NCBI GenBank assembly: GCA_026982705.1
Contig: JALSGP010000014.1
Span: 1 to 64,000, forward strand
Direction: 5' to 3'
Length of the DNA: 64,000 nucleotides
Origin: Alphaproteobacteria bacterium
Lineage (GTDB): Bacteria > Pseudomonadota > Alphaproteobacteria > Geminicoccales > Geminicoccaceae
The notes under the pieces are model-generated. The model did not search any database. It saw only the letters and a program-made list of their open reading frames with translations, and was not told the origin of the DNA. Shown piece by piece: positions 15,135-21,577 of the stretch. A program made the position numbers and the translations under genes. Every line of letters begins with the position of its first letter. Positions within the stretch are counted from its first letter, which is position 1.

Positions 15135-16718
15135 ATGCGGCCGCATACTTCCGCCGAACGCTTCCGTCTCGCGCGCCGGCTCGCCGGGCTGCGCGCCCGC
15201 CACCGCCGGCTGCTGCGTCGGCTCGAGGCGCGGGCGCGGCTGATGGCGCTGGTCAGCCACGACATGCGCGAGCCGCTGCAGGCGCTGCTGGGCCCGCTCA
15301 GGGACCTGAGCGAGGAGGAGACGGATCCCCGCCGCCGCGAGCGGCTGGCGCTGTGCCTGCAAGCGGCCGAAAGCCTCACCACCCTGGTCAACGACCTCCT
15401 CGACGTGGCGCGGGCGGAGCACGGCCGCCTCGTCCTCCACCAACGGCCCTTTCGACTCGACGGTTTCCTGCGGCGCGTGGTGGAGCTGGTGGCACCCCGT
15501 GCCCGCGCCCGTGGTCTCCATCTCGGGCTGACGCTCGATCCCACCCTGCCGCCGGTGGTCCGGGGCGATCCGGCGCGCTTGCGCCAGATCCTCCTCAACC
15601 TCCTCTCCAACGCCGTCAAATACACCCGCCGCGGCGGCGTGCGACTGCTGGCGCACCGCGGTGGTCGCGGCGTGCGGCTGGTGGTGGAGGACACGGGCCG
15701 CGGCCTCCCTCCGGCCCTGCGCCGTCCCGGCGCCTTCCGCCGCGGCGGCGAGGAACTGCCGGGTACGGGACTCGGCCTCTTCATCGCCCACCGCCTCGCC
15801 GGCCTCCTCGGTGGCACGCTGCATCTCGAGGAGACGGACGGTGGCGGCACCCGGGCGGTGCTGGACCTGCCACTGGCCGAGGTGACGGTGACACCCTCCG
15901 ACGTGCCGGCGACGCCCACCTCGCTCATGGCGCTCGTGGCGGCGGTGGAGACCACATCCGCCGCCCTCGCCCGGGCGCTGGCGGATGCGGGTGTGCGGGT
16001 GCAGGAGACGCCGGATCCGGAGGCCGCCCTCGCCCTCGCCCGGGAGGCGGCGGACGCGGGCGCGCCGCCGGATCTCATCGCCGTGGCCGCACCGGCGGCG
16101 ACGCCGGCGGTGCTGGCCCTCGCCCGCCGCCTGCGCCGGCATCCAGCCCTGGTCGAGACCCGCCTCGTGCTGCAGGTGGCGGCGGGCCTGAGGGGCGATG
16201 CGGCGGCGGCCGAGGCGGCCGGCTTCGACGCCTATCTCGCCGGGCCGGCCGACGGATTGCCCTGGGCCCGGCTGCTCGAGCATCTGGCCCCGGGTCGGCC
16301 GGATCGGCTGCTGGTGGCCCACGATCTCGTCGAGGGACCACGGCGCCCCCTCCGGGTGCTGGTGGTGGAGGACGACCCCCTCAACGCCCGGCTGCTCGCG
16401 CTGCTGCTGGAGCGCCTCGGTCACCGGGTGGTTCGCGAGGCCAGCGGCGAGGACGCCCTCGCCCGTCTCGCCGCCGACCCCGCGGTGGACGTGGTGTTGC
16501 TGGACCTGCAGCTGCCGGGGATGGACGGCTTCGCCTTCGTTCGCCGGTTGCGGGCGGATCCGCGCCTCGCCGCCCTGCCGGTGGTGGCGGTGACGGGAGC
16601 GGGTCTGCCCGAGGACCGGGCGGCCTGTCGCGCGGCCGGCATGGCCGCCTTCCTGGCCAAGCCGGTGGAGCGGGCCGATCTCGCCGCCGTGCTCGCGCGG
16701 GTGGCGGGCGGGGGATAG
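15135..16718 (+). CDS. Soluble hybrid sensor histidine kinase with two receiver-like domains
   Basis: This 527-residue protein has no signal peptide, membrane segment or recognisable input domain. After 35 arginine-rich residues comes a HisKA domain (ALVSHDMREPLQALL, phospho-acceptor His42). The ATPase domain has NLLSNAVKYT, VEDTGRGLP and GTGLGLFIAHRLAG. From about residue 260 to 400 there is a receiver-like domain that lacks an evident phospho-acceptor Asp (LIAVAAPAATPAV at that place). The last 120 residues are a full receiver (VLVVEDDPLN, Asp457 in VVLLDLQLPGMDG, Lys in FLAKPVE). With no output domain, it must signal through a phosphotransfer partner. It lies just upstream of the pilus operon on the same strand, so a role in pilus control is possible but unproven. 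Confidence 0.88.
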   Translation: MRPHTSAERFRLARRLAGLRARHRRLLRRLEARARLMALVSHDMREPLQALLGPLRDLSEEETDPRRRERLALCLQAAESLTTLVNDLLDVARAEHGRLVLHQRPFRLDGFLRRVVELVAPRARARGLHLGLTLDPTLPPVVRGDPARLRQILLNLLSNAVKYTRRGGVRLLAHRGGRGVRLVVEDTGRGLPPALRRPGAFRRGGEELPGTGLGLFIAHRLAGLLGGTLHLEETDGGGTRAVLDLPLAEVTVTPSDVPATPTSLMALVAAVETTSAALARALADAGVRVQETPDPEAALALAREAADAGAPPDLIAVAAPAATPAVLALARRLRRHPALVETRLVLQVAAGLRGDAAAAEAAGFDAYLAGPADGLPWARLLEHLAPGRPDRLLVAHDLVEGPRRPLRVLVVEDDPLNARLLALLLERLGHRVVREASGEDALARLAADPAVDVVLLDLQLPGMDGFAFVRRLRADPRLAALPVVAVTGAGLPEDRAACRAAGMAAFLAKPVERADLAAVLARVAGGG

Positions 16719-16796: not shown

Positions 16797-17291
16797 ATGG
16801 TCCATCGTCCCCACCCGTTCCCGTTCCGCCTCCTCCCGGGATGCGCGCTGGCCCTCGCCCTCCTGGCGGTCTCCGCCCATGCCGGCACCGAGACCGCCAC
16901 CCTCACCGTCACCGCACGGGTCCAGTCCGGCTGCAGCGTCTCGGGCGGGGTGCTGGACTTCGGCACCTACACCTCGGGCCAGAGCGACGACGTCACCGCC
17001 ACCGGCCGCATCACCCTCACCAACTGCAACGGCACGGTCCTGATCGAGCTCGACGGCGGCTCCAGCGGCGACGTCCAGAACCGCACCATGCGCTCCGGCG
17101 GCAACGTGCTGCGCTACCAGCTCTACGTGGACAACGCCTACAGCCGCGTCTGGGGCACCGGGCAGCAGGGGGTCCAGTACATGGCCCTCACCAGCGACGC
17201 CTCGGTGCTGGTCTACGGACGCATCCCCGGCGGTCAGACGGTGCCGGCCGGCAACTACCAGGACGTGGTCAACGTCACCGTCACCTTCTGA
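16797..17291 (+). CDS. Spore coat U (SCPU) domain pilus subunit
   Basis: This 164-residue secreted protein has a signal peptide (CALALALLAVSAHA) and one SCPU domain. It begins TLTVTARVQSGCSVSGG, with FGTYTSGQ, then ITLTNCNGT, and closes with a beta strand VVNVTVTF. Cys pairs in GCSV and TNCN match the disulfide of archaic chaperone-usher subunits such as CsuA/B. The alternating hydrophobic N-terminal strand would serve as donor strand for the next subunit. As the first and longer subunit of the operon it is the best candidate for the main shaft protein. Chaperone, usher and a second subunit follow directly. Confidence 0.87.
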   Translation: MVHRPHPFPFRLLPGCALALALLAVSAHAGTETATLTVTARVQSGCSVSGGVLDFGTYTSGQSDDVTATGRITLTNCNGTVLIELDGGSSGDVQNRTMRSGGNVLRYQLYVDNAYSRVWGTGQQGVQYMALTSDASVLVYGRIPGGQTVPAGNYQDVVNVTVTF

Positions 17292-17309
17292 TCCGTCCGC
17301 GAGGGTCCC

Positions 17310-18029
17310 ATGTCCGTCCGTGCGCCGTTCCTTCCCCTGCTGTCGCTGCTGCTCTGGCTCGCGCTGCCCGCCCTCCCCGCGCGCGCCGGCGCCTTCACGG
17401 TGGCCCCCACCCGGGTCATCCTCACCCCCGAGGACCCGGTGGGCGCGGTGGAAGTCACCAACCGTGGCCCGGATACGGTCCTTCTCCAGCTCGAACTCTA
17501 CCGGTGGCACGCGCCCGACGGCCGCGAGCGTCTCGATCCCACCCGCGATCTGCTGGCGGTGCCGCCTCTCTTCCGCCTCGCTCCCGGCGAATCGCGGACC
17601 ATCCGTGTCGGCCTCCGGGTTCCCTTCCCCGAAGACCGGGAGGGGAGCTGGCGGCTGGTGGTGGGCGAGGTCCCGGAGGCGGAGTCGCGGATGCGCGGTG
17701 GCGTACGCTTCGCCCTGCGATTGAGTCTACCGGTGTTCGCCCGGGTCCCCGGCGCCGAGGCCGACGTGCTGTGGGAGCTGCGCCGGCAGGGCGACCGCCT
17801 GGTGGTGGAGGCGCACAACCGCGGCCGCGCCCATCTCCGCCATCTCCGCATCTTCCTCGAGGATGCCGCCGGCCGCCGCCACCCCGTCACCGCCGAGGCT
17901 GGCTATCTGCTGCCGGACGAACGCGTCCGCTGGGTCCTGCGGCCGGCGCCGGCCGCCGCGCCCCGGGTCCTGCTGGTGGAGACCGACAAGGGAGTGCGTC
18001 GTGTCCCCCTCGCGGCGCGGAGTGGCTAG
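17310..18029 (+). CDS. Periplasmic pilus chaperone (PapD-like, archaic CU type)
   Basis: This 239-residue protein has a signal peptide (LLWLALPALPARA) and two Ig-like domains. The N-terminal domain shows FTVAPTRVILTPEDPVGAVEVTN, with the Arg that anchors subunit C-termini, and FRLAPGESRTIRVG, the family motif before the G1 strand. The second domain runs from about residue 140. It would bind each SCPU subunit in the periplasm and deliver it to the usher. The gene lies 18 bases after the first subunit gene and overlaps the usher gene by 29 bases. Confidence 0.88.
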   Translation: MSVRAPFLPLLSLLLWLALPALPARAGAFTVAPTRVILTPEDPVGAVEVTNRGPDTVLLQLELYRWHAPDGRERLDPTRDLLAVPPLFRLAPGESRTIRVGLRVPFPEDREGSWRLVVGEVPEAESRMRGGVRFALRLSLPVFARVPGAEADVLWELRRQGDRLVVEAHNRGRAHLRHLRIFLEDAAGRRHPVTAEAGYLLPDERVRWVLRPAPAAAPRVLLVETDKGVRRVPLAARSG

Positions 18030-20745
18030 CCGGGCTCCGCTGCTGGTGGCGGCCGGCCTCGTCCTCTCGTCCTGGAACGCCGACGCCCCGTATCCGCCGG
18101 CCGGTCCGCGCGTCGTGGGCCTGCTGGATCCGGCCGCCCGTGCCGAGCGCGTCTTTCGCGACTGGCTCGCCCGCGAGCGCCGCCGTCTGCTAGGCGCCGC
18201 CGCGGTGACGGGAACCCTGCCGCCCGCTCCACCGCCCTCAGGCTCCCTCTCTCCGCCGGCGGCGGACCATCGGCTCCGCCCGTCCCTGATGGTGGCGCGG
18301 GTGGCGCCCCCTCTGGATCCGCCGGCCGCCACCATTCCCCGCCTCGCCACCCGGGTGCTGCCACAGCCGCCGCCGCACCGCCGTGCCGGCACGGTGGTCC
18401 GGGCCGGTCCCGCCACCGCGGACGGAACCGCCGTCCCCGCGGTGGCGCCGGCGGCCGGACCGCCGCTTCCCACGCCCCGCCGCGATCCCCTCGGCCTGCC
18501 GCTCACGGAGGAGGACCGCTGGGAGGAATGGCTGCTGGCGGTGACCGTCAACGGCGAGACGGTGAGCGAGGGCGCCTACGTGATCCGCGAGCCCGGCACC
18601 GGTCGCTTCGCCGTGCGGGTGGAGGATCTGCGCCGCTGGCGGCTGCGGGTCGATCGCGATCGCATCCTCACCTTCCAGGGAGTCCCCTTCTACCCGCTGG
18701 ACGCCGTGCCCGGCATCCGCATCCGCTTCGACGAGAAGCGGCTGGCACTCGCCCTCGAGGCGCCGCCCGAGGCCTTCGAGACCTTCCGCCTGGACGTCCG
18801 CGGGCTGCGTCGCATCGAACCCTCCCTCACCCCCGGCGCCTTCCTCGACTACGATCTGGTCGCCACCGCCGGCCGCGGCGTCGAGGAGCGGGTGGACGCC
18901 CTGATGGAGACCGGCATCTTCGGTCCCTTCGGCGTCCTGCGCTCCGGCTTCGTGATGCGCGATCTGTTCGAGCGCTTCGCCGTCGAGCGGCTGGAGACCA
19001 CCCTGGTGCGGGACTTCCCCGACCGCCGCACCACCCTGCGCCTGGGCGATGCCCTCACCCGCGGCGGCAGTTTCACGGGAGCCGAGCGGTTCGCCGGCGT
19101 CCTGTACGGAACCGACTTCTCCCTCGATCCCACCTTCGTCGCCTTCCCGCTCCCCGCCATCGGTGGCCTCGCGCGCCAGCGCTCGGTGGTGGAGGTGCTG
19201 GTGGACAACGTCCGCCAGGCCACCGGCGAGGTCCCGCCCGGCCCCTTCGAGATCACCAACATCCCGGTGGTGACGGGAGCCGGTGAGGTGCAGCTCAAGG
19301 TGCGCGATCTGCTCGGCCGCGAGCGGCTCGTCACCCAGCGCTACTATCTCTCGCCGCGCCTCCTGCGGCCCGGCCTCGCCGACTGGTCCCTGTCCGCCGG
19401 CCTGCTGCGCCGCCGCTACGGCGAGGCCAGCTTCGACTACGGCGATCCCTTCGTCTCGGGGGTGCTGCGCTACGGTCTCGGCGAATCCCTCACCGGCGAG
19501 GTCCACGGCGCCTGGCGACGTGGGCGGGCGCTGGGCATCGTCGGCGGCAGTCTGCGGCTCGGCCGCTACGGCCTCCTGAGCGGTGCCGTGGGCGTCTCCC
19601 ACGACGCGGACGAGGGCACCGGCTTCCTCCTCGATCTCTCCTACGAATATCTCTCCGGCCCCTTCGACATCACCCTCGGGACCCGCTATGCCGGCTCCGG
19701 CTTCCGCGAACTGGGCGACGGCCGTCCTCCGCGCCGGCGTGACGAAGCGCGGCTCGGCTTCGATCTGGGGCGGGCGGGGCGCCTCGGTCTCCAGCTCGTG
19801 CGCCGCGAGCCGGCGGTGGGGGACACCGTCGTGGCCGCCACGGCGAGCTGGTCCCTCCCCCTGGGCCGCGGGAGCCTGCTGGTCGACGCCGCCCGCCTGT
19901 TCGAACCGCGCTCCGACTTTGCCGTCGGCATCTCCTGGTCGCTGCCGCTCGGGGGCGATCGCACCGTCTCCGCCGAGACCCGCCTCGCCGACGGCGAGCG
20001 GCGACTGCGGGCCCGCGTCCGCGGCCACCGCGGGGCGACGGATCTCGGCCTCGACTGGCGGCTCGCGGCCGAGGTGGGGGACCGGCCGCGCCGCTTCGAC
20101 GCCCGCGCCGCCTACCGCGGTCGCTACGGGCGCGTCGGCGGCGAGCTGGAGGTGGCCGACGGCGATCCCCGCGTGCGTCTCTCCGTGGACGGCAGCCTCG
20201 CCTACGTGGGCGGCCGCCTCCATCTCACCCGCCGCGTCGGCCGCGCCTTCGGTCTGGTGGCACTGCCGGGCCTGCCGGGCGTGCGGGTCTATCTCGACAA
20301 TCGCGAGGTGGGCCGCACCGATGCCGATGGCCTGCTGCTGATCCCCGGCCTCCGTCCCTACGAGGCCAATCGCATCTCGCTGGAGCTGGACGATCTGCCC
20401 CTCGGCGTGAGCGTGGCGCGGCCGGTGGTGGAGGTGGCCCCCTACCGGGGTGCCGCCGTCGTCGTCGACTTCGGTCTCGATACCGACCGCGAGGCCACCG
20501 CCCGCCTCGTCGCCGACGGCCGACCGCTGCCGGCCGGACTGGTCCTGCGGGCCCGCGCGGGCCGCGCGCTGGCGCTGGTGGGCCGCGACGGCTTCGCCCA
20601 TCTGCGGGGACTGGGCGAGGGACCGGTGGTCCTGGAAGGGGACCGCGACGGCCGCCGCTGGCGATGTCCCGTGCCGCCACCGCCCGCCGACGATCCCCTG
20701 CCGGATCTGGGAGAGATCCCGTGCCGCCACGACACCGCCGGCTGA
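18001..20745 (+). CDS. Outer membrane usher with a proline-rich N-terminal extension
   Basis: This protein secretes and polymerises pilus subunits through a beta-barrel pore. It has 914 residues if read from the GTG at 18001, which has an AAGGGAG ribosome binding site and a signal-like segment (PLLVAAGLVLSSWNADA). The usher N-terminal domain begins only near residue 172 (WEEWLLAVTVNGETVSEGAY). Before it lie about 140 residues rich in proline and alanine, which I do not know from typical ushers. The barrel (VRDFPDRRTTLRLGDALTRG), plug region and C-terminal domains (GVRVYLDNREVGRTDADG, then LPAGLVLRARAGRA) follow in the normal order. The start overlaps the chaperone gene, so translation is likely coupled. 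Confidence 0.87.
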   Translation: MSPSRRGVASRAPLLVAAGLVLSSWNADAPYPPAGPRVVGLLDPAARAERVFRDWLARERRRLLGAAAVTGTLPPAPPPSGSLSPPAADHRLRPSLMVARVAPPLDPPAATIPRLATRVLPQPPPHRRAGTVVRAGPATADGTAVPAVAPAAGPPLPTPRRDPLGLPLTEEDRWEEWLLAVTVNGETVSEGAYVIREPGTGRFAVRVEDLRRWRLRVDRDRILTFQGVPFYPLDAVPGIRIRFDEKRLALALEAPPEAFETFRLDVRGLRRIEPSLTPGAFLDYDLVATAGRGVEERVDALMETGIFGPFGVLRSGFVMRDLFERFAVERLETTLVRDFPDRRTTLRLGDALTRGGSFTGAERFAGVLYGTDFSLDPTFVAFPLPAIGGLARQRSVVEVLVDNVRQATGEVPPGPFEITNIPVVTGAGEVQLKVRDLLGRERLVTQRYYLSPRLLRPGLADWSLSAGLLRRRYGEASFDYGDPFVSGVLRYGLGESLTGEVHGAWRRGRALGIVGGSLRLGRYGLLSGAVGVSHDADEGTGFLLDLSYEYLSGPFDITLGTRYAGSGFRELGDGRPPRRRDEARLGFDLGRAGRLGLQLVRREPAVGDTVVAATASWSLPLGRGSLLVDAARLFEPRSDFAVGISWSLPLGGDRTVSAETRLADGERRLRARVRGHRGATDLGLDWRLAAEVGDRPRRFDARAAYRGRYGRVGGELEVADGDPRVRLSVDGSLAYVGGRLHLTRRVGRAFGLVALPGLPGVRVYLDNREVGRTDADGLLLIPGLRPYEANRISLELDDLPLGVSVARPVVEVAPYRGAAVVVDFGLDTDREATARLVADGRPLPAGLVLRARAGRALALVGRDGFAHLRGLGEGPVVLEGDRDGRRWRCPVPPPPADDPLPDLGEIPCRHDTAG

Positions 20746-21167
20746 GGGCCGCCCTCGTTCCCCTCGCGCTGGCCGCCGCCACACCGGCCCACGCGGCCTG
20801 CACCGTCGACGTGGTGCCGCTCCACTTCGGCACCGTGCGCCTCGATTCCATCACCTGGAGCCGGGGACGGGTGGGGGTGAGCTGCGATGTCGCCGCCACC
20901 GTGGAGGTCGCCCTTTCGCCCGGTGCCGGCAGCTATGCCATGCGCGCCATGGTGGGCCCGCGCGGCGCCCGCCTCCACTATCAGATCTACACCGATCAGC
21001 GGACCTATCGGGTGTGGGGCGACGGCAGCGGCGGCAGCGCGACCGTCACCGCCAGCGTCCCCGCCGGCGGCCGAATCGAGCTCACCCTCCACGGCATGGT
21101 GCCGGCGCAGGTGGGTGTACCCGAAGGCAGCTACAGCGATTCCCTGACCGTCACCCTGATCTTCTAA
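20721..21167 (+). CDS. Short second SCPU domain pilus protein
   Basis: This 148-residue protein starts at a GTG inside the usher 3' end (GGGAGAG upstream) and has a signal peptide (LRAALVPLALAAATPAHA). A single SCPU domain follows: ACTVDVVPLHFGTV, VSCDVAATVEV, LHYQIYTDQRTYRVWGDG, and the closing strand SDSLTVTLIF. Its place after the usher matches the tip adhesin gene of Csu-like operons, but known tip adhesins have two domains and about twice this length. It may be a small tip, a terminator or a minor subunit. The first subunit shares its RVWG motif. Confidence 0.82.
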   Translation: MPPRHRRLRAALVPLALAAATPAHAACTVDVVPLHFGTVRLDSITWSRGRVGVSCDVAATVEVALSPGAGSYAMRAMVGPRGARLHYQIYTDQRTYRVWGDGSGGSATVTASVPAGGRIELTLHGMVPAQVGVPEGSYSDSLTVTLIF

Positions 21168-21280: not shown

Positions 21281-21577
21281 ATGCGTCGGGTTCCGGGTCC
21301 CATCCTCCCGCTGGCCGCCATCGTGCTGCTGGCCGCGGCGCTGGCGGCGCCGCCCGCCGCGGCCGGTCGCGGGCGCGCGGTCTTCCGCACCGGCGCGGAA
21401 CTGGCGGTGCGGGTGCGCGTCGTCTCGCCCTGTGCCGTGCGGCCGGACGATCCCGCCTGCGACACCGCGTTCGGGAAGGCGCCGGCCGGCGCGGACGCGG
21501 CGGCCGTCCCGGTGCGGAACGTGCGCGTGCGCGAGGAGACGGTGAACGGCGTGCGGGTGCGCACGATCGAATACTGA
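21281..21577 (+). CDS. Small secreted protein of unknown function
   Basis: This 98-residue protein begins with a clear signal peptide (LPLAAIVLLAAALAAPPAAA) and ends VNGVRVRTIEY. The mature part of about 70 residues holds two cysteines (SPCAVRPDDPACDTAFGKA) that could form a disulfide. I do not recognise a family. It lies 113 bases after the last pilus gene on the same strand and before the metA promoter, so it may belong to the envelope functions of the pilus operon or stand alone. The coding call rests on the signal peptide and normal codon use. Confidence 0.55.
   Translation: MRRVPGPILPLAAIVLLAAALAAPPAAAGRGRAVFRTGAELAVRVRVVSPCAVRPDDPACDTAFGKAPAGADAAAVPVRNVRVREETVNGVRVRTIEY

Follow-up and report, generated by a model that had tools for sequence, protein, structure and literature searches.

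A four-gene archaic chaperone-usher pilus operon in Geminicoccaceae with a bare pilin domain as predicted tip subunit

The Csu pilus of Acinetobacter (CsuA/B-A-B-C-D-E) is built from SCPU pilins by donor-strand assembly with a CsuC chaperone and an usher. CsuA/B polymerizes and the tip subunit CsuE does not (PMC4654587), CsuE being a two-domain tip adhesin and CsuA and CsuB adaptor subunits (PMC9452303). The CupE pilus of Pseudomonas aeruginosa is of the same archaic class: CupE6 has been modeled with two Ig-like domains, CupE2 and CupE3 are minor pilins, and the cluster is controlled by the two-component system PprA-PprB (PMC10104325). As presented in these sources, the structural picture of archaic pili rests on two systems whose tips have two domains. 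The Saf pilus of Salmonella (SafABCD) belongs to another family, using an FGL chaperone and not SCPU pilins, but is similarly specified by four genes for a major subunit, chaperone, usher and minor subunit. The fibre has the form SafD-(SafA)n, with SafD as the cap at its tip, and binding requires both subunits (PMC5700814). Small SCPU subunits clustered with chaperone and usher genes also have been described in cyanobacteria, including CccS-CccP-Slr0019 (PMC4390875, PMC7005997).

The window analyzed here is a stretch of 64,000 nucleotides of contig JALSGP010000014.1 from a Geminicoccaceae genome (assembly GCA_026982705.1). Open reading frames and sequence place four genes on the forward strand at positions 16797-21167, in the order SCPU1, chaperone, usher and SCPU2, which is how the first-pass annotation had read the operon; Pfam confirmed each of the genes with scores well above the cut-offs. 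SCPU1 (16797..17291; PF05229, 103.5 bits), the major or rod pilin of 164 amino acids, has a predicted signal peptide to residue 29, a donor strand at approximately residues 30-45 and the pilin domain thereafter. It is followed by a PapD-like periplasmic chaperone of archaic, CsuC-like type (17310..18029; PF00345 (PapD_N), 71.1 bits) and by an outer-membrane usher of 907 amino acids (~18022..20745; PF00577, 131.2 bits, with FimD and PapC matches) whose GTG start at 18022 overlaps the chaperone stop. SCPU2 (20721..21167; PF05229, 77.9-78.4 bits), the predicted distal tip cap, holds one pilin domain, as had been proposed, and no adhesin domain. Its length of 148 residues is correct if the GTG at 20721 is the start; an alternative ATG within the usher gene (20664..20720, forward strand), evident in the ORF listing and the sequence, gives 167 residues, which add only to the region ahead of the signal peptide and leave both this peptide and the mature end the same. 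Read from the GTG, the signal peptide ends in TPAHA and ACTVD follows directly. The start region of SCPU2 lies inside the 3′ end of the usher gene, and this overlap (20664-20745) suggests coupled translation. The possibility that SCPU2 is a degenerate or chance reading frame was rejected on its Pfam score and conservation. Downstream of the operon a frame of 98 amino acids (21281-21577) has a signal-peptide-like start; no Pfam match to it was found, and tblastn against the operon loci of the family gave none either.

The best-supported assignment of the operon is to the archaic (sigma-type, Csu/CupE-like) chaperone-usher pili, with a tip subunit that is a bare pilin domain. The pilins belong to the SCPU family (PF05229) and Csu subunits are nearest to them in fold. 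The AlphaFold2 model of SCPU2 (pLDDT 89.6) gave CsuA/B as the best Foldseek matches, with CsuE also found, and CsuA/B was likewise the best match for the model of SCPU1 (pLDDT 84.2). The donor-strand region of the latter was of low confidence and poorly placed, as expected since the subunit was modeled without a partner. Family profiles of both pilins compared with the PDB matched CsuA/B, CsuE and the SCPU entry 8cio. Among solved chaperones CsuC was closest (5d6h, E 1e-9), followed by CupB2 and Caf1M (~3e-4). The usher grouped well within a tree that comprised 74 ushers from loci with SCPU pilins and no classical or alternative usher. Thus, the archaic class put forward initially agrees with the nearest solved structures, and the structure prediction of both subunits that had been recommended placed Csu pilins at the head of each comparison. 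The chaperone and subunits match archaic proteins better than those of Saf-like FGL polyadhesins. In common with the Csu system the locus has SCPU pilins, a CsuC-like chaperone, an usher, predicted donor-strand assembly and a tip subunit that is predicted not to polymerize. Unlike the narrower Csu and CupE pattern, it specifies neither a two-domain tip adhesin, its tip being one pilin domain, nor a set of minor or adaptor subunits, the operon having a single rod gene.

The remainder of the host genome (2.66 Mb in 48 contigs) was searched for further components. PF00577 matched only the operon usher, in two pieces of one gene, and PF00345 only the operon chaperone. PF05229 matched at three places: SCPU1, SCPU2 and an orphan SCPU gene on contig 33 (C33:84781-85176; L007:8677-9186) that encodes a single-domain pilin of 170 amino acids with a donor strand. 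The statement that the system has only two subunits therefore holds for the operon and fails for the genome. As no other chaperone or usher was found in the genome, the orphan probably uses the operon machinery, as a minor subunit or an alternative one. A TolC-family outer-membrane gene lies near the orphan in 12 of 22 loci, usually just upstream and on the same strand. The family has kept this orphan, donor strand included (the contig 33 locus and 21 further orphan loci).

A two-domain tip encoded elsewhere, the finding that would have undone the original proposal, was sought genome-wide with PF05229, PF00419 and a profile of length 301 built from eight two-domain tips. PF00419 had no match, and the tip profile matched the same three SCPU places through the C-terminal pilin half only (profile positions 156-301 or 172-301). 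Fragmentation of the assembly into 48 contigs leaves room for an adhesive tip that is a separate protein and was missed, for example, in a contig gap. This is most improbable, however, as the genome is 99.66% complete, the three profiles disclose nothing more, and a two-domain SCPU protein was absent from every order-level locus fetched. A hidden second tip domain was rejected on the same genome-wide searches.

The placement of SCPU2 turns on its N-terminus. Residues lying after the predicted signal-peptide cut and ahead of the first cysteine were counted for the fetched order-level loci and the window, cuts being assigned by a simple home-made rule that considers start codons and is not a trained predictor. 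First subunits have 16-25 residues in this interval (22 of 22; SCPU1, 16) and orphans 11-22 (18 of 18), and in the former 95-100% of rows have hydrophobic residues at positions -4, -6, -8 and -10 before the cysteine, an alternation that a donor strand would be expected to show. Last subunits have 0-5 residues with a median of 1 (20 of 20), and SCPU2 has 1. Two-domain tips resemble the last subunits in this respect, with ≤6 residues in 27 of 32. A cruder rule that ignores start codons, run over 110 loci, gave ≤6 residues for 28 of 36 single-domain last subunits and ≥10 for four; three of these four (L018, L021 and L022) are errors of the rule, having 1-3 residues when start codons are considered, and L049 stays doubtful. 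One locus (L071), with a frame of ~410 codons, was reassigned by eye from single- to two-domain. A loose-pattern search for a rod-specific GQ motif, which was not built on, found it in 21 of the 22 first subunits, 16 of the 18 orphans and 8 of the 20 last subunits. To judge from its sequence SCPU2 lacks a donor strand, and a subunit of this type could only be a distal cap that starts the chain.

Overall, the data make it probable that the operon specifies an archaic pilus with a bare pilin-domain tip in which SCPU2 is the distal cap, SCPU1 the polymerized rod and the orphan a likely minor or alternative subunit. The fibre is predicted from its genes, and its assembly might proceed as follows. 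Chaperone-bound SCPU2 would arrive first at the usher and, without an N-terminal donor strand, would attach to nothing ahead of itself. Its open groove would be filled by the strand that the first SCPU1 molecule donates, leaving SCPU2 as the distal cap, and a thin fibre would grow behind it as further SCPU1 polymerizes through donor-strand exchange. One chaperone and one usher would serve all three pilins. Because there is no dedicated adhesin domain, any adhesion would be expected to involve the fibre body as well as loops on the cap, on the pattern of the Saf pilus. Although of another pathway class, SafD capping the SafA fibre is the nearest working parallel. To judge from sequence the tip may be adhesive or, as the first-pass annotation had contemplated, non-adhesive.

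The same features bear on two other interpretations. PapH and FimI exemplify subunits that terminate or anchor a pilus, and SCPU2, as a single domain encoded by the last gene, might similarly be placed last at the base to stop growth, leaving SCPU1 or the orphan pilin as the tip. Single-domain minor subunits can act thus in classical pili, in which FimI anchors the rod to the usher (PMC12122975). However, a terminator needs a donor strand of its own, and the single residue before the cysteine in SCPU2, matched by 0-5 in last subunits across the family, rules against this role; moreover, the position after the usher is that occupied by the two-domain tip in other loci. The terminator is considered very unlikely on these grounds. 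Alternatively, the products might form a non-fimbrial coat or short oligomers and not a pilus. The Pfam family takes its name from spore coat protein U of Myxococcus, in which a chaperone-usher-like pathway was reportedly tied to spore coat formation in a study of 2011 (cited in PMC7005997), and a cap devoid of an adhesin would suit a coat. This reading is improbable, although a little less so than a terminator, as both fold and profile of SCPU1 match CsuA/B, which forms long pili.

The distribution of the predicted distal cap without an adhesin domain was assessed in samples at three levels. SCPU genes were detected in 25 of the 31 genomes of the order sample, which comprises one family, in 13 of 144 genomes of the class sample and in 45 of 299 of the phylum sample; loci were fetched from the last of these sets except for G346 and G411, each with one weak match. 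Most loci of the order sample run SCPU, chaperone, usher, SCPU; exceptions are few (an extra SCPU gene between chaperone and usher in L019, and two SCPU genes ahead of the chaperone in L026). Last genes were read for 20 relatives in the order, and every one encodes a single-domain subunit, on which ground a deletion of recent origin in this species was rejected. Eleven other families contribute 14 single-domain loci, and the fetched loci in total, window included, comprise 35 with single-domain and 36 with two-domain tips. Neither the view that the form is unusual nor that of the four-gene layout as an exception survives these counts, many such operons being present in genomes and in RefSeq annotation, an outcome that the first-pass annotation had itself listed as refuting. 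The one-domain tip is instead a widespread, little-discussed variant that is conserved family-wide and served by ordinary machinery. In the literature searched, outside which most subscription papers lay, no paper that discusses a single-domain archaic tip was found.

The single-domain form was also set against the usher phylogeny. Among the named sources of related ushers are Geminicoccaceae MAGs, Geminicoccus harenae and Marinimicrococcus flavescens. The usher tree, a quick tree with long branches and without bootstrap, was built from 74 of 77 frames, the remainder being short pieces or a locus's second frame. On this tree the single-domain label requires four changes against all other rows (mean of 24.9 when shuffled), or two once rows with an undetermined tip are omitted. 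A branch with SH-aLRT 99 unites 29 rows, 28 of them single-domain and one undetermined, and a second single-domain group of four rows stands apart. A tree of the domains themselves (240 rows, 130 columns) was poorly resolved; the nearest rows to one-domain tips in it are rods (21) and orphans (15), not the C-domains of two-domain tips, and it cannot decide for or against an origin of one-domain tips in the pilin half of their two-domain counterparts. Among the alignments, A1 contained 16 of the 20 family last subunits, and A4 and A5 the window plus further loci. Mean pairwise identity is 42.0% for the cap and 50.9% for the rod, the rod being higher in 109 of 120 pairs. This faster divergence of the cap fits an adhesive role with a ligand-facing surface as well as it fits a neutral cap, and is not proof of such a surface. 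A tentative possibility is that archaic pili divide into two ancient lineages. The tip would be a two-domain adhesin in one of them; the other, which includes this operon, would lack the adhesin domain from the outset or through loss, and may adhere through loops of a fast-evolving, donor-strand-less cap together with the whole shaft.

For this genome the significance of the operon is modest, its machinery being standard and its form conserved across the family. For the archaic class as a whole, approximately half of the sampled operons have a lone pilin domain as their last subunit, and a donor strand is nearly always absent from it. Thus, a two-domain tip does not characterize archaic pili in general. 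The one-domain variant provides a minimal two-part fibre with which the contribution of the tip to adhesion can be tested.

Upstream of the operon on the same strand, a gene at 15135..16718 encodes a soluble-looking hybrid histidine kinase with HisKA, HATPase_c and C-terminal receiver domains, assigned by Pfam, and no output domain. Its 3′ end is 79 bases from SCPU1. Among relatives, every one of the 21 operon loci with at least 1.6 kb of upstream sequence carries a homologue ahead of the operon, also on the same strand; 20 were counted from the automatic list and the other is L012, which the list missed owing to a long stop-to-stop frame. L014, with 175 bases upstream, is outside the count. 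By the same test a homologue was found outside the family at L098 only. The kinase is a likely regulator of the operon, an arrangement that would recall the two-component control of CupE.

Archaic operons of both types also occur on plasmids. Of 314 named plasmid records with a match, six were opened. The last SCPU protein is long (304-332 aa) in Mesorhizobium ciceri, Sinorhizobium meliloti and Novosphingobium pentaromativorans, and short in Sphingomonas paeninsulae (156 aa), Acinetobacter pseudolwoffii (170 aa) and Deinococcus taeanensis (148 aa). The S. paeninsulae operon (L138:370-7728) is flanked by a response regulator gene and two diguanylate cyclase-type genes, and the four-gene operon of A. 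pseudolwoffii (L140:1512-6898) is located between IS6-family elements.
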